64,000 nucleotides of DNA from Lasiodiplodia sp. COLG20. Taxonomy: Eukaryota; Ascomycota; Dothideomycetes; Botryosphaeriales; Botryosphaeriaceae. The notes under the pieces are model-generated. The model did no database searches. It worked only from the letters and a program-made list of their open reading frames with translations, and was not told the origin of the DNA. How positions within the stretch are numbered: position 1 is the first letter of the stretch; each line of letters starts with the position of its first letter. The position numbers and the translations under genes were made by a program. The stretch covers positions 3,162,001-3,226,000 of the forward strand of contig VNWV01000001.1 of assembly GCA_009801085.1 (NCBI GenBank), given 5' to 3'. Below are positions 851 through 42,458 of the stretch, piece by piece.

Positions 851-3800
851 ATGCCTGGGGAAGAATCCCCAATCGGCATCCAAAGGCTTGATGCCTCAGT
901 CATATTTGAGGGAAAGACTGATGATGGGCCCATAGCTAAGTGCGTGTTCTCCGATCACCTCAGCCACGATAAGTTGTGAAAATATTTGCTTATTTATTCG
1001 CTAGTATCGTGTTCGTCCACGGCCTGGGTGGCCACCCTTACAAAACATGGCTCTGGAACTCCAGGTCGACTACGAAAGCCGCGAATTCTAATCAGGGAAG
1101 AGATCGCATTCGGAAACTTTTTCGCATGAAACGTGGCGGACAACCACAGCAACCTGAGGACGTAGAGAGGGAATGCGTCTATTGGCCTGCTGAACTGTTA
1201 CCTGAAGTTATCCCAGATGCGAGGATCATTACCTACGGATACGATGCAGACGTGATTGGCGGCATGTTCCAGAGCCACAACAAAAACAGTATCCTTCAAC
1301 ATGGTAGTGATCTGATGGTGAAGATTGAGAGATCTTTGCGTAATGAAGTAAGCTGAAGATATGTTTGAACATGAGGTGTTTCTCTAACTCGTCGATTTAC
1401 TGCAGAAACCGATCATTTTTGTTGCCCACAGTCTCGGTGGACTTGTCGTCAAGAATGTACGGCTCTCTGAGTTGTTGTGTTTCGCAATGCTAAAAAATAC
1501 GCCGGCAGGCTATTCAAAGGTGCAGAAACAATCTGAGCGAGAAATACCAGGCACTCTACCATCGCATTTGCGGGGTGGTGTTCTGAGGAACTCCGCACAG
1601 AGGAAGCGATTCTGCGTCCTGGGCTCAAATCGCCTCCAACTTAGCCTCAACCGTCCTGTATGACAGCAACAAGAGGATCATGCAAGACCTTGAAGTCAAC
1701 TCTCAGATTCTTGACATCATTCAGGACGACTTTATAAAGCTTTTGGATCAGGACAACAGTATCAAAGTTCACACATTCCAGGAAGGTCGGGGTCTATCCA
1801 GTGTCAAGGGATTTTCAGGAAAGGTACTTCTTCATTTGATGCTCCTTGGATCAAGTATCTGACGCTATAGATTGTGGATGAATTCTCGTCCAAACTCGGC
1901 CATTCACGGGAACTTGTCGAGTCCATCAGTGCCGACCATAGGGACATGGTCAAATTTGGGTCCAAGGATGATGCTGGATTCAGGGCGGTATCTGATGTAC
2001 TAAAGGGATTTGTACGCGAATTCAGAAGCGGTAGTGCGTAGAGTACCTTTCAAAGTTGTGCTTATTGGTTAAAGCTAATGGAAATATAATTAAATTCGCT
2101 TAGACATCCTCATTCTTTTCGAGTACCTTCAATTCTTCAAACGCTACGATACCTATGAGCTCCGCCAGAAGATACCTGTACGACACTTCAACACTTGCCA
2201 ATGGCTTACAAGAACTGAGGAGTTCTGCGATTGGTATTCCAACACAGCCTCGTGCATATTTTGGCTATACGGCTATCCCGGAATCGGCAAATCAGTTGCT
2301 GCCAACTACATCTACAACTACCTCCTTGAGCTAAGTACACGAGAAAATGAGCAAAAGGATCGTGGTCCACCTCTTTTTTGCTACTTCTTCTGTCTTGACA
2401 CCGACGAAAGGACGCAACGGCAGGAGCTTATCCTTGGATCCATCGTTTATCAAATTCTCTGTCAAGAAGTGTACCTGGCAGAAGCTCTACGCCGGACACC
2501 CAAATACGAGAATGTGAGACAATCACCCCCGGAATCTGCCCAGGAGCTTTGGGAGATACTATACATTCTTATTCTTAAGCTTCATTCCCGCTGGCTTTAC
2601 ATCGTTCTCGATGGACTGGACGAGATGAACCAGCAGCATCTGGAGCCATTTCTCAAGGAGCTGGTGAAGTTGGCCTCTCTAAATACCCGCATCAGGGTGT
2701 TTGCCACGAGTCGACCGGAAACGAAGATAAGAGAGGGCTTCGACGATAATAGCATCATCAAATACGATTTGGGCCAGTCCGCAAACAACCGCTCCGACGT
2801 CCTCTTATTTCTGGCTGACACAGTCGATGGCTACGCCAAGAAGCATTGTTTCGATACGCAGTCCAAACAGGATCTTCTGTCAGCGCTACAGGAGCGCTCA
2901 GGCGGACTTTTTCTTCGGGCTTCATTAGCATGGCAGCTCTTCGTCACAGGTGTTGGTACTTGGTCCAAAGCGACCCTTCAAAAAAGGATTGCACGGCTCC
3001 AGGAGCTTCCAAAAGGCTTGAACAAGCTGTACCACTGCGTTTTGATGTCTATTGACTTGGAATTACACGAAGAGCTGTACCAAATTCTGCGCTGGCTGGT
3101 TGTTGCTCGGAGACCTCTCTCGTTTGAAGAGCTTTCCGTGGCACTCGCCCTCAACAAGTGTCCCCAAACATGCGCTGAACTTGAAGTCCATAAGCCATGG
3201 TCAACCAAAACCTTTTTGGAGAACAACTGTCCATATCTTGTTGAAATCAATCATCACGAGGATCGTGTCTCCTTAGGGCACCAGTCATTCAAGGATTTCC
3301 TCTTGCAAACAAAAGAAATCGACATCGACGGCAACATGATTCCAAACAGATTCCACATAGAAGTAGCCGAGGCAGAGATCAAAAGTGGACGCGAATGCCT
3401 CATGTATATCGGCCTTGAAGATTTCCGAAGCGAAGTGAGTCTTGAAAAGAGCGAGGTAGGCTCGCTACGTCTGGATTCCAGTCTCCTCAAAAGATACACA
3501 TTCCTCAGCTACGCGAATCAGTACTGGTCCCATCATCTGAAACTACATGACGACTCCGATGAAGTCTGGAAAGCCTTTGAGAATGTCGTCAAAAGCCCCT
3601 GCAATTTCAGAATACTATGCATCAGCCAGGACAGACATATTAGCATGGATGTTGCACCGGTCTTCATAGCTTTCAGATATAGGCTTGATAACCTATTAAG
3701 AAAGCTTGTCCTGAGCGGCCACGACATCAATCAACCAGATCAGTCTGGCAACCCGATCCTACATAACCCGGACCTTGCGTCGGATAGCCCGGAAATCAAA

Positions 3801-5111
3801 TTTGTCCTTAGTCTTGGTGCAGATATCAATGTCCGTGATCGGCAAGGTCAGACAGTCCTGTTGAAGCTCTTGAGACGCGATGATGTTCGCAGGGTTCGCA
3901 CGTGGTTGAAGGAACCAGGAGTGGATGTCAACGCGCAAGACAATGAAGGACTCACCCCTCTGCACGCTATCGTCCTCTTGGATCCCAAATTCGCCGTTCG
4001 GCTTTTGGATCTCCTCATATCCCATTACAACGCCGACATCAACATCCGCGACAACAGCGGGAAGACACCTTTGGTATTGGCCATCCATTGGGGGAAAGAA
4101 AAGATGACAAAGGCGATACTCAGAAAGGCAAATACGAATATCCAGCATGCGGACATGCGTGGAGAAAGTCCGTTGATCAACGCTGCAAAACAGGGGTGTG
4201 TAAATGTGTTGCACAACCTTCTTCAACAGCTGGACTCTGTCGACCGCTTCATCGATTATGACGGTCAATCGATCCTCCATTGGACAGTGAAGATGGGATT
4301 GACCCAATATCTTGCCACTGCCCTCTTGAAACAGAGATCTCTAGTCAATGCACCTGACAAGAAGGGCATGACTGCTCTCCATGTTGCCGCACGGGAAGGC
4401 AACTTTGAAGCTGTAGAGCTACTTCTGGTCAAAGGAGGTAGCACAACGCAAAAGACGGCACTACAAGAGCTTCCTCTGCATCTCGCTGCACGTAAAGGTC
4501 ATAAGCACATTGTCAAACTCCTGCTCGACAAAACCCCTCGTGATATGGTGAACGACAGGGACATACTCGGATGTACGCTTGCGCACTGGGCGACAACGTC
4601 GGGTAATGACAGGCTGATTCAAATGCTGGCCGCGGAAAAACGTGTGGATCTCACGCTGAAGAACAAGATGGGACGCACACCAGCCGCGACCGCTGCCGAG
4701 CACGCATCTCTGGAATCGTTCAAGGCTATGCTGAGCACAGGAAACGCTCAAATGACCCAACTTGACTATTCTGGAAACACTCTGATCCATTTGGCTGCCG
4801 GTATGAGCAATGTGCCGAACACTACTTATCTTGTCACTTGTGGTCAGATCGATAAGAACGCCAGAAACCGATTCGGTAAGACCGCTCTGGACAAAGTGGG
4901 CGCAATATCGAGAGATTCCAAGTTCTATATGGACCTTTTTGATTCTGGGCTTTACCATTCTGCCTCATATGCTAAGGATATGATGCTCCCTTCTGATATT
5001 CGATCTCTGCAGCCTCCAAAAGCACACGAGGTTGATCGCGAGGGATGGAGGATGGTTTTGCAGCCATCGTATTCCAGAGAAACATCACAGACATCTCGCC
5101 ACTCTTCTTGA
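851..5111 (+). pseudogene. NACHT-ankyrin NLR-type protein with alpha/beta-hydrolase N-terminus, interrupted by a stop
   Basis: Best model: exons 851-939, 1005-1347, 1406-1456, 1509-1823, 1871-2030 and 2104-5111, about 1,321 codons. The order is a SERAC1/lipase-like hydrolase (FVHGLGGHPY in exon 2, nucleophile elbow AHSLGG in exon 3), then a NACHT-type NTPase (Walker A GYPGIGKS near residue 375, Walker B-like LDGLDEM near residue 489), then about a dozen ankyrin repeats from roughly residue 860. Such proteins are known as candidate fungal incompatibility and immune receptors, where the N-terminal hydrolase is the effector. All joins keep frame, but a TGA at 1584-1586 interrupts exon 4 at the conserved GVVF-x-GTPHRGS segment. 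No normal-sized intron removes it. Either this is a true null allele or a sequencing error. Translation from a later start would keep NACHT plus ankyrins without the effector. Confidence 0.82.
1584..1586 (+). other. In-frame TGA in NLR hydrolase domain
   Basis: The codon sits between GVVF and GTPHRGS, a strongly conserved stretch where family members usually carry Leu, Phe or a similar residue. Frame is intact on both sides. The following bases are GGA, not the CTA context linked to stop readthrough. Confidence 0.75.
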
Positions 5112-14477: not shown

Positions 14478-16619
14478 ATGGGCTCCCTCAAAAGTCACTG
14501 TATCCGCATGGCAGGAAAAACGTCCAGATCACAGCTTGGGCAGAAGAGGGGTCTCTCCACAGAGGTTGTCGACACGGCACCAAAGCGCGCCAGACCAAAT
14601 CCAAGCAAATTGCTCATGCCACCTCCTCAAGTCTCTCGAGACTCGTCGGCGTTCCACACATTCAAAACCCAAATTGACCAGTCCCTATTCTGCGAACGAT
14701 GCAATACTGAAGAATATCCACGGTACATACTGGAGGAAATCAGAAGGCCCATGTGCGGTGTCTGGCTCAAGAAACTATTGGTTGAAGATTGGGAGACTGA
14801 TACACTCCCTTCCTGTCCCTGCTGCCAACTCCTGCGGTATGCCCGCTGCATCCGCAAAGAGAACCATATTTCCAATCACGTTGCCTATTTCTATGTGGCC
14901 ACGGATCTCGAGAAGCCATCGGCTGAAGACGAACCTTTGCGAGTACTCGGAATTACAGAGGACTTTTTGAGCGTTCGACAACCAAAAGAGTCCTGTGGGG
15001 TGTTCAAACAACCGTTTCAGGAAGCACAGCACCGTGATCGTATAAATCTTTCTGTCTTCAAAAGGCAAATCGCGATTTGCAAGCGCACGCATGCCTGCTG
15101 CAATCTTCAGGCTCGAAAGCAACAGAGAGTGGTAGGACTCAGGGTCATTGACTGTCGAAGAAGGATTGTTGTGTCTGCTCCTGACAACTGCAAGTATGCT
15201 GCTCTCAGCTACGTTTGGGGCTCTCCTTCAAATTCTGTGGGTGATTTGCAGAACTTTCCACAGACCATCTCAGATGCTATGACTGCAGCGCTGGGTCTGG
15301 GAATCAGGTTCTTGTGGGTAGATCGATACTGCATCAACCAAAACAACCCGACCGAGAAGCATTCCCAAATACAGCAGATGGGCTTGATTTACAGTCAAGC
15401 CGAGGTCACATTCGTCGCAGCCGCCGGGAAGGGACCCGACCATGGACTTCCGGGAATTTCCCGCCGGCAGCCAAAGAAAGAGACAGGAATTCGCATTGGC
15501 CAATACGTGCTTCGGCCGTTGCACGCGTCATCCCAGGAGCTTTTAGCCAGATCAGCCTGGATGACTCGTGCTTGGACCTTTCAGGAATTTATCCTTTCTA
15601 AACGTCGTCTGGTATTCACGGACCAGCATGCTTTTCTGCAGTGCCAAACTTCAATGATGGAGGAATGGCCTGCTTCCGCGTGGAAGTATACCTTCAGCCC
15701 GACTGAATTTGTTGATATGGGATGCAATTTGGACATCGCATTCCCTTTCGACCCACAACTTCCCCACATCAACCAAGTCATAGATCACGTTCAAAGCTAC
15801 TGTACAAGACAACTTTCGTATCCATCGGATGCTTTGAATGGTCTTTTGGGCGTCTTGTCAATGTTTGAAAATGGCTCAAACCCTGTGCACCATCTCTGGG
15901 GCCTTCCGTACTCCCCAGTGAAATTTGGACAACATTCTCGAATACATCTGCCTCTAATGTGGAAAACACAAAATGGGACCTGGGAGTCTGATGGGGAATT
16001 CTCTGTTTACCGTTCTGCCATTCGACGAAAGGAATTTCCGTCCTGGTCATGGGCTGGTTGGGAAGGTGTTCCTACATTTGCTGTGCAAGACATCGACCAG
16101 CCTCTCCCGCTGCGCATTGAAGTGGAGAAGGAAGATGGTACAGGGTTGCTAAGCTTGGAAGAATTTGCAGCCCAGCAAGTATCTGGAAAGGATATTTCAG
16201 CTTCTCGATTTCTCCATATCCAAGGCTGGACTCATCCTCTGGAGGTTGCCTGGAATCAGCACAATGGCAAGCATGGCAGGGTCGGCCCTGTTGTCCGACT
16301 ACCAAATATTGGAACGTGCCGCGTTAGGAATGCAGCATGTTCAGAAAGGGAACTCCAAAGCGGAGAACGGACGATAGGAGATCTAGTCGCACTCATTACA
16401 GGTCATTCTACGTGGTTCGGGCCTGATTCAGTGGGACAACCCTGTCTGTTACTTCACTGTTTGGTAGTCGAAAAAAAAGATACTGCAGCTGAACGATTCG
16501 GTGTAGTTGACCTGCCGTTAAACGTCCCTCTTCATGGGGATGAGGGGTTTGGGAAAGTGATCTCAAAATTACGGGCCCAGTTTCCTTTGATTAGGAAAGC
16601 GCGTCTTCGACTTGGCTGA
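14478..16619 (+). CDS. HET-domain (heterokaryon incompatibility) protein
   Basis: Single exon of 713 residues. The HET domain (PF06985) spans roughly residues 235-390: YAALSYVWG opens it, followed by the central GIRFLWVDRYCINQNN and the later MTRAWTFQEFILSKRRLVFT. A Cys-rich N-terminal part (CERC and a CPCC cluster, residues 72-118) may bind metal. The C-terminal half includes FPSWSWAGWEG, common in this family. HET proteins trigger cell death when different individuals fuse. Two ATGs, 14478 and 14508, are equally possible starts. It lies about 9 kb from the damaged NLR-type gene, another allorecognition family. Which partner it recognises cannot be told. Confidence 0.9.
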   Translation: MGSLKSHCIRMAGKTSRSQLGQKRGLSTEVVDTAPKRARPNPSKLLMPPPQVSRDSSAFHTFKTQIDQSLFCERCNTEEYPRYILEEIRRPMCGVWLKKLLVEDWETDTLPSCPCCQLLRYARCIRKENHISNHVAYFYVATDLEKPSAEDEPLRVLGITEDFLSVRQPKESCGVFKQPFQEAQHRDRINLSVFKRQIAICKRTHACCNLQARKQQRVVGLRVIDCRRRIVVSAPDNCKYAALSYVWGSPSNSVGDLQNFPQTISDAMTAALGLGIRFLWVDRYCINQNNPTEKHSQIQQMGLIYSQAEVTFVAAAGKGPDHGLPGISRRQPKKETGIRIGQYVLRPLHASSQELLARSAWMTRAWTFQEFILSKRRLVFTDQHAFLQCQTSMMEEWPASAWKYTFSPTEFVDMGCNLDIAFPFDPQLPHINQVIDHVQSYCTRQLSYPSDALNGLLGVLSMFENGSNPVHHLWGLPYSPVKFGQHSRIHLPLMWKTQNGTWESDGEFSVYRSAIRRKEFPSWSWAGWEGVPTFAVQDIDQPLPLRIEVEKEDGTGLLSLEEFAAQQVSGKDISASRFLHIQGWTHPLEVAWNQHNGKHGRVGPVVRLPNIGTCRVRNAACSERELQSGERTIGDLVALITGHSTWFGPDSVGQPCLLLHCLVVEKKDTAAERFGVVDLPLNVPLHGDEGFGKVISKLRAQFPLIRKARLRLG

Positions 16620-35857: not shown

Positions 35858-38481
35858 ATGGCCTACACAGGTCCCACTACGAAGCAGCAGATAGAACACG
35901 TCGCGTGGCTTGTCGCCTCAGAGCGGGACACCAAGAGAGCCGCCGAACACGTCTTTACTTTCCTTGAGGAAGTAAGGAAAGGGCTGTTGACTGCGCTGCC
36001 GGACCAACCGCATCGCATTTTTCTGTTTTTTTCCGACATCGCTCAAGGGTTGCAGCCATACTCGACTGTTCTGGGCCCTTCGTCGATTTACTATGCGCAA
36101 CCCGGCGCGCATCAGCAAACATACGGTAAGTACGGCGCCTCTTCGAAACTCTACTCTGACACCTGCCGCAGATCGCTCCAATTATCCCAGCACCGAATCT
36201 ATTCCCAGCTCTACCCCGCACACCGTGACCGGCGACAGCAATCGCCGAGATACGACCGAAGAAGAACCAGTCCTTCAGGACGTGGATTATTTCATACGCG
36301 CTCTTGGCGATGGAAGCCTAAACGATATCCAAAATGCACCACGCCCCACCGATCCACACGGTCGCCGAATCCCTCAAGGTAAATTCTCCAGCGGGGTCCT
36401 ACGTCCCAACCCTGAACTGAGGCGAACCATCGGACTTCCCCTCGATCCGCGAATCAACTCGTCGCAGAATGACACTATCGCAAGTAGTGAAGAGAGGCGG
36501 ACTCTATTCCCACTCCCACAAAAGGGCGACGAAGTCCGTCACGAGAAGCACCGTGGCGTTATCCAGCTATACCCAACGACCGAACAATCCCAAGATCTCC
36601 CCAAGCTCATCAAGCTCGCGCGATCATTAGGCGCAGATAGAAATGGATTCTGCAAGGTCAATCTACCGTGGGATGGCCCGGAATACCCACTGGCCAAACC
36701 AGCCAATAACATCAAAGTTGGAACGAACCGCTTCTCGGTCTGCCCACAGACCGATGGGACGTTCAAAGTAAACAGGAACGAGCAGCATGAAAGGCTTTTG
36801 TTTGGACCTGAAACATCATTTCCTACTGCTGCAACAGACAATGAGCTGGTCCAGCGATTCGAGGCACTCCCGCGAAATCCAGGCGGCTTCCAACGTGTTC
36901 GTTACTACTGCGATCTTCATGCTCACGGTGAACATCAGCGCAAGCGGATTGGCCTGCCACCACACTCACCTATATTCCCACTCAAGGAAAACCGACTCTC
37001 CAAAACCAAGGCCACCATCCCAGGCATCCATTGGCCGTACGCCTATGTGTCCAACGACGAATTTGGAGCACCATTCGCAATGCACGTCGAGGACTGCCAC
37101 TTAGCATCCATCAACTATCTCTACACTGGAGAGAAAGTATGGTTCATTGTTGAGCCACAAAGCGGCCGTTGGCTCGAGGAAAGGCTCGTGGCCACAGGCG
37201 TCAAAAAAAGATGCTCGCAGTTTCTCCGCCACTCTGCGAAATACGTACCGCGGTCTTTGCTCGACGCGTGGGGCATATCGTACAAAGTCATCCGCCAACT
37301 TCCCAACGAAATCATCGTCACCTTTCCCGGCGCTTACCACCAGGGATTCAGTACCGGCTTTACCTGTGCCGAAGCCGTAAACTATGCAGAGCCTGACTGG
37401 TCAACGGAACAGTACCACTTCTGTAGTGACAGGTGTCCCGAAGGTTCCATCCAAGCCCCAATGATGGCACTTATTGAGTCGGGCGAGTCTCAACAACACG
37501 ACCAACCCGGCAACGGCACGAAGCGAAAGGCCAGCGACGCGATCCTCCCGACCGGCAGCACCAAAGAAGCAGCAGCAGCAGCAGCAGCCAAGCGGCCGCA
37601 CCTCCGCAACAAGCCGCACCTCAAGGAAATGACACTCTCACCCAAGTTCTCCGGCGCGCTGGACGAGTTCAAGGACGTGACGCGGGCGCTGCTGTTCTGC
37701 ACCATCGGCAGCCCGGAGGCCATGGTGCAGCTGCGCAAGGCATGCGCCGCGCTGCGCGACCGCGCGGCCCTCCCCGACGACGTCGGCCACCGCGCCGGCG
37801 CCGGCGCCGGCAACATCACCGCCTGCCAGGCCATGCTCTCGCTCGACCGCCTCGACAACCAGGACTTCGCCGTCCAGGTGCTACGCCGCTTCTACCTTGT
37901 GCGGCTCGTGCGCTGGCGGAAGAATGCAGACGTCACGACGCAGAACCAGCGTGCGGTGCGGAAGTGCGCGCAGGAGCGGCTGCCGCGGTACGAGACGCTG
38001 GTGCTGGAGGACCTGATGGCGCAGGCGTATCCGTACCTGACGGACAAGAGCGACGAGGGCTACAAGAGCAGGTACAAGTCGTTGCAGAACAGGATCAGCA
38101 GCGGGAACAACTGGTACCTGCTTGGCGAGGAGTTTGGGGAGGGGATTCTTGCTTTGGTGCCGACGTCGGACATAGTGCCGAATTCATCGTGAGTGCATGT
38201 TCGTGAGCTCAGTTGCTGTCGATTTTTAACTGACATGTTTTGCACACAGAGTCGAGAAACTGGCGCGCGGGCCGTTCAACGAGCTGATGGAAGCTTTGAA
38301 GAGGCATCGTGGGGGGTTCCTCCGGGATCTTAGCGCCCGTGTTGGCAATCATCTGCTCAACGTGATCAACGGCAAAGAGACGGGTCGAAAGTTTCTATTT
38401 GAGGATGAAAAGTGTAATCTTTTGGAGGAAGCTGAAGATTCGAAACGGTTGATTGAGCTGTGCGACTTGGATGAGGCATGA
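35858..38481 (+). CDS. JmjC-domain protein (KDM4-like fold)
   Basis: Exons 35858-36125, 36172-38188 and 38250-38481 give 838 residues. The JmjC core lies about residues 340-500: EFGAPFAMHVEDCHLASINYL supplies the first His and Glu iron ligands near residue 394. LPNEIIVTFPGAYHQGFSTGF supplies the distal His near residue 478 and is followed by CAEAVNYAEPDW. The wording matches KDM4/JHDM3-type histone lysine demethylases, which use Fe(II) and 2-oxoglutarate. A JmjN segment is not obvious. A Lys/Arg-rich linker with a run of eight or so Ala (GCA repeats near 37566) follows, then a helical C-terminus unique to me. It probably acts in the nucleus; histone demethylation is inferred from fold and conserved ligands. 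Both introns are clean GT-AG. Confidence 0.85.
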
Positions 38482-38998: not shown

Positions 38999-41900
38999 AT
39001 GACCACTCTCGGTTCTCTCAAGCGGGCCCTTAGGCAGGCAGCCAAGGCCACGGCGTCGGCCCCGGAGCAGCCGTTATCCGAAACTCAGTACAGCGCCGGC
39101 TTCAATATCCTGGTACAGGACTCAGGATACATGACGTACCAAGACTTCATTACCCCTCAACTTTCTCAGCTACTAGCCCCTCTCTTCAACTTGCGCACCC
39201 GTATCTCAGCACTAGAAATCGGTCCTGGACCAAAGAGCGTGCTTGGATATCTTCCCGACCGTCTGAAACGGAAAGTCAGGAGTTACACTGCACTCGAGCC
39301 TAACAGTTTGTTTGCTGCTAGCTTGGAAGAATGGCTTGGTTCTGCCTCAGAGACGGAGTCACCGCTCCCCTATCTGGAAAGTCCGGCCGACATCCGTCGA
39401 ATTCCATTCGTTCTGGAGGACAACGTAGATTGCAATGGCGACAAGAAATTCGACATCGTCCTATTCTGCCACAGCATGTACGGCATGAAGCCCAAACACA
39501 AGTTCATCGAAAGAGCGCTAGGAATGCTTGTTGAACAACCACAAGATGGAATGGTGGTGGTGTTTCATCACGAAGGGGTACATCTCGACGGCCTGGTGTG
39601 CCATCGCATGGCTTCTTTCCCTACTGGCGTTGTTCGCGTGGCAAATGACGACGAGACACTGGACCGTTTCGCCCCCTTCATCGCAGGGTTTGTCATGCAG
39701 GATGTGGATGAGGACAAGGCTATCCGAGCTGAGTGGCGTAAGGTGTGCCGCGTCTTGGGTCGTCGCGAGGAAGCCCACCCAAACCATCTCTTATTCAGCT
39801 CGCCCGACATCATGGTAGCCTTCACACGACATGCGACTGCGTTGCCGGAGCTGGCAGCGCAAGTGCCTTTGATAGAAGGAAACAGGGTGGTTAAAAACCG
39901 GGAGGCTCGGCTGCATGTCCCCGCCGCGGTCGTGAGGCCGACAGAACTCCGACACATCCAACAGTGCGTTCGATGGGCTCTGAAGCACGGCGTCAGCTTG
40001 ACCGTCATCGGTGGGGGCCATAGCGGCCACTGTACCTTGCCCAACGTTGTCTCGGTAGACATGGACGCCTTTGACCAAGTACACATTTTCACTGCGGAGG
40101 AGGATGGAGAAAATTCCGGTTCTGATTCCGGTTCCTTGGTCGTCGCCGAGGCTGGCTGCAAGACGGGGGACATCATCCGCAAGACCATGGCAGCGGGTGT
40201 GACAGTTCCCCTGGGAGCTCGCCCAAGCGTAGGTGTCGGGCTGTGGTTACAAGGCGGCATCGGGCACCTGGCCAGACTACACGGTCTCGCCTGCGACTCT
40301 ATTGTCGGCGCCATTCTAGTCAGCGTCAACGCCAGTCAAGTCCTCTGCATCGGCCATGTACCAAGCCAACACCGACCGGCCGGTGCTATTCGACCGGAAA
40401 ACGAGACCGATCTGTTATGGGCGATCAAAGGCGCTGGGACCAACTTCGGCATCGTTGTCAGTGTGACCTTCAAGGCTTACGCGGCTCCGACCTACTTTAC
40501 TCAAGACTGGGTTGTCCCGCTGAGTAACAGCCTTGAGGCGCGGCTCAGGATCGACGACTTTGATGAACTCGTCGCCAAGAAGCTCCCCCGGAATGGTTCT
40601 GCGGACGCATATCTGTACTGGGACGCGGACCAGCTGCACCTTGGCGTGACCACATTCCAATCTTCTACGGCCAGGTCTGCCTTTACAGAACCCACTCCTA
40701 CGCCCGTAGGTGGAATGTGGAGGCCGGGTGACGATTTCCAGACTGTAGACAGCGTTGGCCTATTTGAGACCGAGATGTACGTGTCTGGGATGTACGGCGG
40801 GCACAGTGGAGGCAAGACGTCCTCGTTCAAGCGATGTTTGTTCTTGAAAATCATTGGGCGATCAGACATTGCGGAGCGCTTAGTTGCGGCCATTGAGACT
40901 CGCCCCACCCCACTCTGCTATCTCCACCTATTGCAAGGTGGTTGCGCGATCATGGACGTTGAGGCCGACGACACTGCTTTCGGCTGTCGAGACTGGGACT
41001 TTGCCTGCGTTATAACAGGTGTCTGGCCCCGCAGCGAAGACGGCACCGAAGCCGCAAGATCTGCCGTGCGCTGGGTTTACAGCGTCGCCGGGGACTTGCT
41101 GCCCTTTGGTAGCGGAGCTTACGGCGCTGACCTTGGGCCGGACCCCAGAGACGCCGCGCTTGCAGCGGAGGCGTTTGGGCCAAACCTTCAGCGCCTGGCC
41201 CGCTTCAAACACAGCATGGACCCGCGTGGTGTGCTGGCTTACGCCTGTCCGCTCCCGAAAGCGCCGAAGGAACAGAAGCTTATCATTCTTGTCACGGGTG
41301 AAAATTGCGTCGGCAAGGACTTCTGTGCCGAAGTCTGGGTCTCGATGTTCAAAAGATGCACCCAGAAAAACATCACTGCACGTGTGGCCAGCATCAGCGG
41401 TGCGATCAAAAGAGAATACGCAGCAGCTACTGGTGCTGACCTAGACAGCTTGCTTTTGGTTCGCGCCTACAAGGAGCAACACCGGCCAGCATTGACGGCC
41501 TTTTTCCAGGAGCAGATGCGCCAACGACCTCGGCTGCCAAAGGAAAATTTTCTAAATGTGGTGCACGGTGCCGCAGACTTTGACGTGCTGTTCATCACCG
41601 GGATGAGAGACAAAGCGCCAGTTGCAACCTTCTCACATTTGGTTCCAGGCAGCAGGTTGATCGAAGTTCACGTCCAGGTCAGCGAGCTGGCGCGACGGAG
41701 GAACCAAAGGTTCCACGGCTGTGACGACGATGATGAAAACGACAAGGACGGCAATAGTAGCAAGTTGAATTTGACGGCCTTAGGACATCGCCCCGATCTC
41801 ATCTTCGACAATGACAAGACTGGGAAAGAGGCAGCAGAGAAGTTCGCCGAACATCGCCTGCTTCCCTTCTTCAACGAGGAGCTACAGCGGCTGGCCGAAA

Positions 41901-42458
41901 TGGTGCGTACAGTACTCGACTTCCCACGCTCGCGCGTCGAATTTCGCCACGTGCTCGGCATTCGGAGCATTCGGATGGACTAGCCCTGTGCTCGTCTCTG
42001 CTGCAAGCTCACTACGCCGGTGACTGGGCTAAAGTTGGTGCGGTGGTGTCTTGTGAGGCTGGCGGCTTCATCTTTGCTTCGGCTTTGGCAATGCGAGTCG
42101 GTATACCCTTAGCGCTAGTTCGCGAAGCCGGCAAGCTCCCACCGCCCACCGTTTCCGTCATCAAGCCCCAGTCATATGTTTCATCCTTAGCACCCAACAT
42201 TCAGGAAGAGAAGCAGATCGAGATGGGGCGGGATGCGGTCCCTATGGGCGCGCCAGTGTTGGTGGTGGACGACGTGCTGTCCACGGGAGAGACGCTTTGC
42301 GCTGTGATACAGCTGTTGATTGAAGCTGGGGTTAGCGCGGAGGATGTCAGAGTCATGACCGTGGCCGAGTTTCCGGTTCACCGTGGCCGGGAACTGTTGT
42401 ACCGACGTGGGTTTGGGGAATCAGTATTCAAAGCCTTCTAGTCTATGGAGGTTCTTAG
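38999..42458 (+). CDS. Four-domain fusion: SAM methyltransferase, FAD oxidase, P-loop kinase, phosphoribosyltransferase (two frameshifts)
   Basis: One intronless frame runs 38999-41983. Residues 1-290: class I methyltransferase with SAM motif ALEIGPGPKSVLGYL (near 73) and FDIVLFCHSMYGM. Residues about 300-750: FAD-binding oxidase of the berberine-bridge type, with IGGGHSGH (His expected to bind FAD), LGARPSVGVGLWLQGGIGHL and a C-terminal substrate half. Residues about 760-960: P-loop kinase (VTGENCVGKDF) followed by SGAIKREYAAATGADLDSLL and a YKEQHRPALTAFFQEQ helix, closest in wording to animal-type phosphomevalonate kinase. Downstream sequence encodes an adenine-phosphoribosyltransferase-like domain with the PRPP motif VLVVDDVLSTGETL. 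Just after EFRHVLGI (about 41960) the frame must shift by one base to reach DGLALCSSLLQ. Near 42417 a second one-base shift gives a family-like C-terminus ending at 42458. The N-terminal 12 codons before 38999 lack an ATG. It is probably cytosolic; substrates are unknown. Confidence 0.8.
41955..41975 (+). other. Frameshift 1 in fusion gene
   Basis: Frame 1 ends ...EFRHVLGI and soon reaches TAG (41981-41983). The expected continuation, GLALC and on to the phosphoribosyltransferase core, is in another frame and needs one missing base. No GT-AG intron of normal size restores it. Confidence 0.65.
42412..42422 (+). other. Frameshift 2 in fusion gene, at a G run
   Basis: After RRGFG the frame gives ESVFKAF and a stop at 42439-42441. 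With one extra G in the GGGG run it would read GISIQSLLVYGGS and stop at 42456-42458, which looks like a proper phosphoribosyltransferase tail. Confidence 0.55.

Follow-up and report, generated by a model that had tools for sequence, protein, structure and literature searches.

A conserved four-domain fungal enzyme family and its copy in Lasiodiplodia sp. COLG20, which two apparent frame breaks interrupt as assembled

The window, a 64,000-nucleotide stretch of the Lasiodiplodia sp. COLG20 genome (part of contig C1 in an assembly of 43.5 Mb and 88 contigs), carries a copy of what appears to be an uncharacterised gene of the Pezizomycotina. The gene is predicted to encode an enzyme of about 1,160 residues that joins a methyltransferase of the histamine N-methyltransferase (HNMT) fold, a covalent-flavin oxidase, a P-loop kinase of the phosphomevalonate kinase (PMK) type and a phosphoribosyltransferase (PRT) of the adenine-PRT type. 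Spread between fungi and frequent decay are part of this reading, to which we give a probability of about 0.55. Highly probable, from sequence comparison, is the narrower statement on architecture and on the frame state of the assembly: the four-enzyme family is real and conserved, and the window copy is broken in the assembly. The features of the locus are as follows.

38999..41983, + strand: open reading frame (ORF) of 994 amino acids (aa) with the methyltransferase, the flavin oxidase, the phosphomevalonate-kinase-like domain and the first ~20 PRT residues
38999..39868, + strand: methyltransferase domain with a histamine-N-methyltransferase-like fold, aa 1-290
39896..41248, + strand: flavin oxidase of the FAD_binding_4/PCMH type with a weak BBE-type (berberine bridge enzyme) end, aa 300-750
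41276..41833, + strand: P-loop kinase of the animal-type phosphomevalonate kinase family, aa 760-945
41903..41962, + strand: start of the PRT, the adenine-PRT 'PDFPxPGxxFR' region, sharing the frame of the 994-aa ORF and followed by the first frame break
about 41962..42417, + strand: bulk of the adenine-PRT-like domain, read in a second frame; stop of this ORF at 42439-42441
42420..42458, + strand: family C-terminal residues ISIQSLLVYGGS and then the stop TAG at 42456-42458, in a third frame; the second frame break lies just upstream

A search with the 994-aa ORF, which scored only the 7,994 candidates with most words in common, returned 1,158 proteins at E <= 1e-5, and the best 120 were listed. 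These are 70-77% identical to the window over 95-100% of the query, and 117 of them are 1,110-1,180 aa long (the rest 982, 1,257 and 1,404 aa). Flavin adenine dinucleotide (FAD), kinase and PRT domains are present in 119 of the 120. Most rows are nameless, and the remaining database names are 'phosphoribosyl transferase domain protein', 'adenine phosphoribosyltransferase', 'FAD-binding PCMH-type domain-containing protein' and 'hypothetical/uncharacterized protein'. Unnamed fungal proteins of ~1,160 aa, such as P0008 (Lasallia pustulata), P0029 (Lepraria neglecta) and P0102 (Orbilia brochopaga), share the flavin, kinase and PRT domains, their order and the length with the window gene; relatives of this type are in one frame throughout, whereas the window copy has two frame breaks. 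The four-domain protein occurs in at least six fungal classes, one species of each having been looked up; apart from nine looked up in taxonomy, the classes of the fungi named here are those to which we take them to belong. No description of the family was found in the open literature, as covered by titles and abstract openings in partly incomplete listings.

All four domains are conserved to a similar degree. Mean identity among family members (1,500 sampled pairs from 119 rows) is 0.814 for the methyltransferase, 0.846 for the FAD domain, 0.848 for the PMK core and 0.836 for the PRT. The corresponding means of the window against the family are 0.744, 0.772, 0.734 (kinase) and 0.685; the last value includes a few out-of-frame tail residues, and the in-frame part gives 0.712 (divergence 0.288). 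At methyltransferase, FAD and kinase sites, 16 checked residues are conserved both in 115-119 of the 119 rows and in the window; in the PRT, eight residues of the window are the same as in P0001.

An earlier note, made from the sequence alone, had described four motifs and four enzyme families in this order, and that architecture stands. LEIGPGPK lies at aa 72-79 (39212-39235), GGGHSGH at aa 338-344 (40010-40030), GENCVGKD at aa 767-774 (41297-41320) and VVDDVLSTGET at 42262-42294. A domain search places FAD_binding_4, P-mevalo_kinase and Pribosyltran above the Pfam curated cut-offs; the methyltransferase falls below its cut-off and is recognised by a confident structure model. The suspicion that such proteins already sat unnamed in databases was also borne out: 119 of the 120 listed relatives have the three Pfam-detected domains, and most rows lack a name. 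Neither of the frame breaks was noticed there, nor which kind of methyltransferase is present, that the gene tree conflicts with classification, or that many relatives are broken.

Its 'one intronless chain' does not hold for the locus as assembled. The 994-aa ORF begins with ATG at 38999 and has no internal stop, and its N-terminus, MTTLGSLKRALRQ, matches that of database relatives, MATLDSLKRALRQ, so that the start codon fits the MATLDSLK start of the family. Its TAG at 41981-41983 comes soon after the start of the PRT, and the remainder of that domain lies in two other frames. PRT residues inside the ORF are aa 969-988, beyond which it departs from the family sequence; the second-frame continuation begins SEHSDGLALCSSLL, and the third-frame stretch, whose stop coincides with the end coordinate given in the note, was identified as the family C-terminus by comparison with the C-termini of relatives. 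Relatives continue through both junctions in one frame (ten shown; P0060 among them ends before the PRT). The nearest relative of the 3' end of the window gene, P0312 of Lasiodiplodia theobromae (285 aa), is 86% identical to it over 152 PRT residues and 78% over the preceding 120 residues, and has the first junction in one frame. Because these proteins read on, both junctions look like frame breaks rather than introns normal for the family. An intron at the first junction is unlikely, as relatives are continuous there and the conserved residues on either side of it occur in two frames, and the same continuity, in P0312 and the relatives shown, gives no support to a programmed frameshift at that point. 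Damage by repeat-induced point mutation is not supported either, the dinucleotide indices of the window copy resembling those of neighbouring genes. Since the two breaks cut off the PRT, the locus as assembled would yield at most a methyltransferase-oxidase-kinase protein.

At 8 of 230 invariant or near-invariant family columns, of which one follows the break, the window ORF differs from the family; the median over all rows is 2, and the next highest row has 7. The ORF was therefore long under selection. For the window PRT piece the count is 6 of 41 such columns, some of which lie in ends that are poorly aligned or out of frame; the other rows have a median of 1 and a maximum of 6. Relative to the methyltransferase and FAD domains, the PRT divergence of the window has a ratio of 1.20, the family median being 0.91 and 5 of 119 rows being as high. 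This slight rise, a point against the main reading, fits assembly errors as well as recent decay. It is possible, if rather doubtful, that both breaks are errors of the assembly consensus and that an intact gene makes the four-enzyme protein in Lasiodiplodia: the coding sequence flanking each break is conserved in its own frame, PRT divergence is raised only slightly, and the 994-aa ORF has no internal stop. Against this, a stretch of about 460 bases would have to hold both errors as a local cluster; further long ORFs in the window (880, 713, 699, 641 and 555 aa) have open frames, a weak control because they were chosen as long ORFs; and pieces of broken relatives are common. In an HSP70 control for assembly errors, 5 of 18 matches contained stops, perhaps at intron ends. 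A single copy of the four-domain gene was found, and the genome gave no PF04275 match other than that in the window. An adenine-PRT-like gene elsewhere on the same contig is 35% identical over part of the domain.

Broken copies of the four-domain gene are widespread among the relatives. Family pieces (P0121-P0240 and P0241-P0337) come from Fusarium, Aspergillus, Penicillium, Cladophialophora and others. In seven cases (59 rows of 120 and 27 of 97 having been compared) the contigs that carry an N-terminal piece and a later one have the same length, an indirect sign that each pair is most simply one broken gene. Where a piece stops with no foreign tail (62 pieces), P0001 continues with Q 10 times, W nine times and R eight times. 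This bias at premature ends fits C-to-T changes creating stops; contig ends may explain others. The four-domain gene probably often decays.

The methyltransferase scores 13.6 bits against PF13489 in the window (cut-off 27), and a confident structure model has the HNMT fold over the whole domain. Histamine N-methyltransferase (1jqe, 2aou) shares this fold with an identity of only 14%, the fold of the window domain being taken from the predicted model. Two bacterial methyltransferases (L011 4857-5810 and L012 2549-3307) have an FCHSLYG motif in common with the fungal domain, to which they are 26% and 24% identical. Inspection by eye of the neighbouring ORFs recognised no PRT, kinase or flavin oxidase linked to them.

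In the flavin oxidase, PF01565 (FAD_binding_4) matches aa 308-442 at 2.1e-14, above the curated cut-off. The BBE motif PF08031 stays below its cut-off both in the window (0.074) and in P0001 (0.0039). Among solved structures the best match is 6-hydroxy-D-nicotine oxidase (PDB 2bvf, 9.9e-17), grouped here with the BBE-like flavin oxidases. Its His72, which we take to be the covalent FAD site, aligns with His341 (GGH) of the window, and this histidine is conserved in 118 of 119 rows. The match ends near aa 502 and leaves the substrate region of the window oxidase largely unmatched. Bicovalent flavin oxidases carry a second, cysteinyl link to FAD. In contrast to these bicovalent members, the family has no cysteine at the position expected for that link, as aligned with 2bvf, and its BBE motif is below cut-off. 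A covalent flavin oxidase with one link is the best guess.

The kinase matches PF04275 (P-mevalo_kinase) at aa 765-882 with 2.2e-20, above the Pfam cut-off, and its solved relatives with E < 0.05 are two phosphomevalonate kinases, PDB 7xnd and 3ch4; a serpin match at 0.2-0.3 is put down to chance. Animal-type phosphomevalonate kinase shares GKD and YKExxR with the window and its relatives. The GKRKSGKD loop of that enzyme is replaced by GESCAGKD in relatives and by GENCVGKD in the window, and RR by RD. The basic residues of the GKRKS loop and RR presumably bind substrate in human PMK. As the loop and RR are replaced, the kinase substrate is probably another one; it may be a phosphorylated compound such as the product of the PRT. 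The enzyme-level model TIGR01223 gives 27.6 bits in the window and 28.3-35.7 in three relatives, with a cut-off of 188.15, and for this reason the domain should not be called a phosphomevalonate kinase. TIGR01223, like the adenine-PRT models used below, belongs to the NCBIfam library, which was built for bacterial and archaeal genomes and whose cut-offs are applied here to fungal proteins.

The PRT piece downstream, in the other frame, matches PF00156 (Pribosyltran) at 1.8e-16, above the Pfam cut-off, and holds the phosphoribosyl pyrophosphate (PRPP) motif VVDDVLSTGET. The domain is closest to adenine PRT (NF002636, 2.4e-20; profile against human adenine PRT, 4x44/1ore, 1.6e-19). The adenine-PRT enzyme cut-offs are missed by the window piece, which is part of the domain (TIGR01090, 68.4 bits, cut-off 185.85; NF002636, 72.8 bits, cut-off 125), and also by P0001, P0312, P0300 and P0102, in which the PRT is in one frame (75.8-91.9 and 89.4-105.5 bits). 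The base-binding PDFPxPGxxFR, the GKLPxPT and the PRPP motifs of the human enzyme align with the window PRT, whereas the flexible loop of the latter is longer and different. A purine-like base is the best guess for its substrate. Searches with PADLOC gave only weak PRT matches, and a defence system was rejected.

The distribution of the gene over fungal classes was assessed as conflict between the gene tree and the taxonomic classification. Trees were calculated from 34 rows, from 19 rows taken as isolates, and from two thinner sets (without H. finlandica; without Orbilia and Venustampulla). The Leotiomycetes (6 rows of the 34-row tree) are rejected as a clade with a log-likelihood difference of 270, and rejection persists with the 19 isolate rows (approximately unbiased test, p-AU 1.6e-44) and in the thinner sets (0.004 where H. 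finlandica is missing and 1e-13 where Orbilia and Venustampulla are). With the 19 isolate rows, rejection extends to Leotiomycetes plus Sordariomycetes at p-AU 1.7e-4. The two Hyaloscypha are rejected as a pair at p-AU 0.002 with the same rows, and more weakly, 0.048, with rows left out; one of them groups with Sordariomycetes (support 98/99) and the other with Venustampulla and Orbilia (96/96). Congeners are 79.1% (Hyaloscypha), 86.0% (Xylographa) and 88.5% (Monosporascus) identical, and pairs of isolates from different classes reach 87.6% (Lepraria-Venustampulla) and 87.3% (Lasallia-Glonium). Lepraria and Trichoglossum share 90.9% across classes, Trichoglossum being a metagenome bin. Together these results suggest horizontal spread of the four-domain gene between some fungi, which we consider somewhat probable.

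Several points weigh against horizontal spread. The Dothideomycetes (p-AU 0.32, 0.26), the Sordariomycetes (0.40, 0.095) and Xylographa (0.50) are not rejected as clades, nor are the 10 rows of Lecanoromycetes without the Icmadophila metagenome bin (0.09); the first tree was already known when the Hyaloscypha test was chosen; ancient paralogy followed by loss could produce an identical tree; and no DUF3435 (PF11917) Starship captain is among the matches listed on contig C1, those listed being on C45 and C56 only. With the Icmadophila bin (11 rows) the Lecanoromycetes are rejected at p-AU 7e-6, and two isolate rows give 0.021; as rejection depends on that bin, they were in the main withdrawn as evidence for transfer. 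Sarcosagium, which has no class in taxonomy, was not counted among the Lecanoromycetes.

A gene already present in the ancestor of the Pezizomycotina, perhaps as several paralogues, and often lost since would be a vertical alternative, the odd tree then reflecting hidden paralogy and contaminated lichen metagenome bins. The classes and genus that are not rejected, including the Lecanoromycetes without Icmadophila, agree with this, as do the short inner branches, many of them weak (11 of 31 open in the 34-row tree and 9 of 16 in the 19-row tree), and the clustering of labels by class beyond shuffled ones (11 changes against a mean of 20.2 in the 34-row tree). Vertical descent is nevertheless the somewhat improbable account: Leotiomycetes, alone and with Sordariomycetes, are rejected with isolate rows, congeners sit in different supported groups, and one copy only was found in the Lasiodiplodia genome. 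The Leotiomycetes conflict offers a test case for metabolic gene transfer without an obvious Starship captain.

Carriage as Starship cargo was rejected, as no captain is listed on contig C1; other routes of transfer are possible. A prokaryotic donor was rejected because genome_contigs held no full-length-family relative (two peptide patterns), the methyltransferase alone having two weak bacterial relatives. A viral origin was likewise rejected, as viral_contigs held none for the full-length or the kinase alignment (two patterns each). The DUF3435 matches elsewhere in the genome lie at 1.06, 1.20 and 1.37 Mb of C45 and at 0.40 Mb of C56, and several have stop codons or are in pieces.

The nucleotide-like product suggested in the note is plausible, adenine PRT being the nearest match of the fourth domain. 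This PRT might couple a purine-like N-heterocycle to PRPP, giving a nucleoside monophosphate, to which the kinase would add a phosphate; the methyltransferase and the flavin oxidase might act on the base, or on an attached amine or side group, by methylation and oxidation. One gene would thus supply a short pathway to a modified nucleotide. This chemistry is a tentative proposal of rather low probability. A full-length structure prediction had a predicted local distance difference test (pLDDT) score of 38 and gives no view of the domain arrangement, a point against the main reading.

The four activities may instead not form one pathway, the kinase-PRT pair being a salvage core to which the methyltransferase and the oxidase were joined for another purpose. 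In keeping with this, 22 of 97 listed pieces begin at family positions 745-770 and extend to the family C-terminus, and some of them are just 48-57% identical to P0001; two-domain PMK-PRT proteins with the family C-terminus include P0300 of Venturia inaequalis (57%) and P0305 and P0311 (48-49%). Together with P0279 (below), they also speak for a kinase-PRT unit within the main reading. Some two-domain entries may be inner-methionine gene calls of broken genes (15 of 97 start at 765), and a dispensable passenger would not show the similar conservation of all four domains, with the checked residues kept. A separate salvage core is accordingly judged unlikely.

Taken furthest, the proposed pathway would make an undescribed purine-like nucleotide (signal, antimetabolite or cofactor) of conditional benefit, and the complete nucleotide-modifying pathway in one intronless gene would move horizontally among filamentous fungi, being gained intact repeatedly and then decaying, as caught here. 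So full a picture is speculative and we regard it as improbable. A conserved protein of 1,160 residues with four catalytic-looking domains nonetheless hints at a possibly unnamed step in the making of a metabolite or nucleotide, and, with all four steps in one gene, expression of a single intact relative could reveal the product directly.

Two unusual relatives were seen. P0103 (Rutstroemia sp., 1404 aa) has GTP cyclohydrolase I fused as an extra domain to the N-terminus of the four-domain protein; this is probably two neighbouring genes in one gene model, and may hint at a pterin or deazapurine link. P0279 (406 aa) has the first eight residues of the family, MATLDSLK, followed directly by the kinase, and looks as though deletion or splicing had removed the methyltransferase and the oxidase.

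Other genes of the window include the following. HET-domain and NPHP3_N/ankyrin genes are often linked to fungal incompatibility.

36093-38192, + strand: ORF of 699 aa with a JmjC domain, directly upstream of the four-domain gene and in the same direction
14478-16619, + strand: HET-domain protein
2469-5111, + strand: ankyrin-repeat protein with an NPHP3_N match

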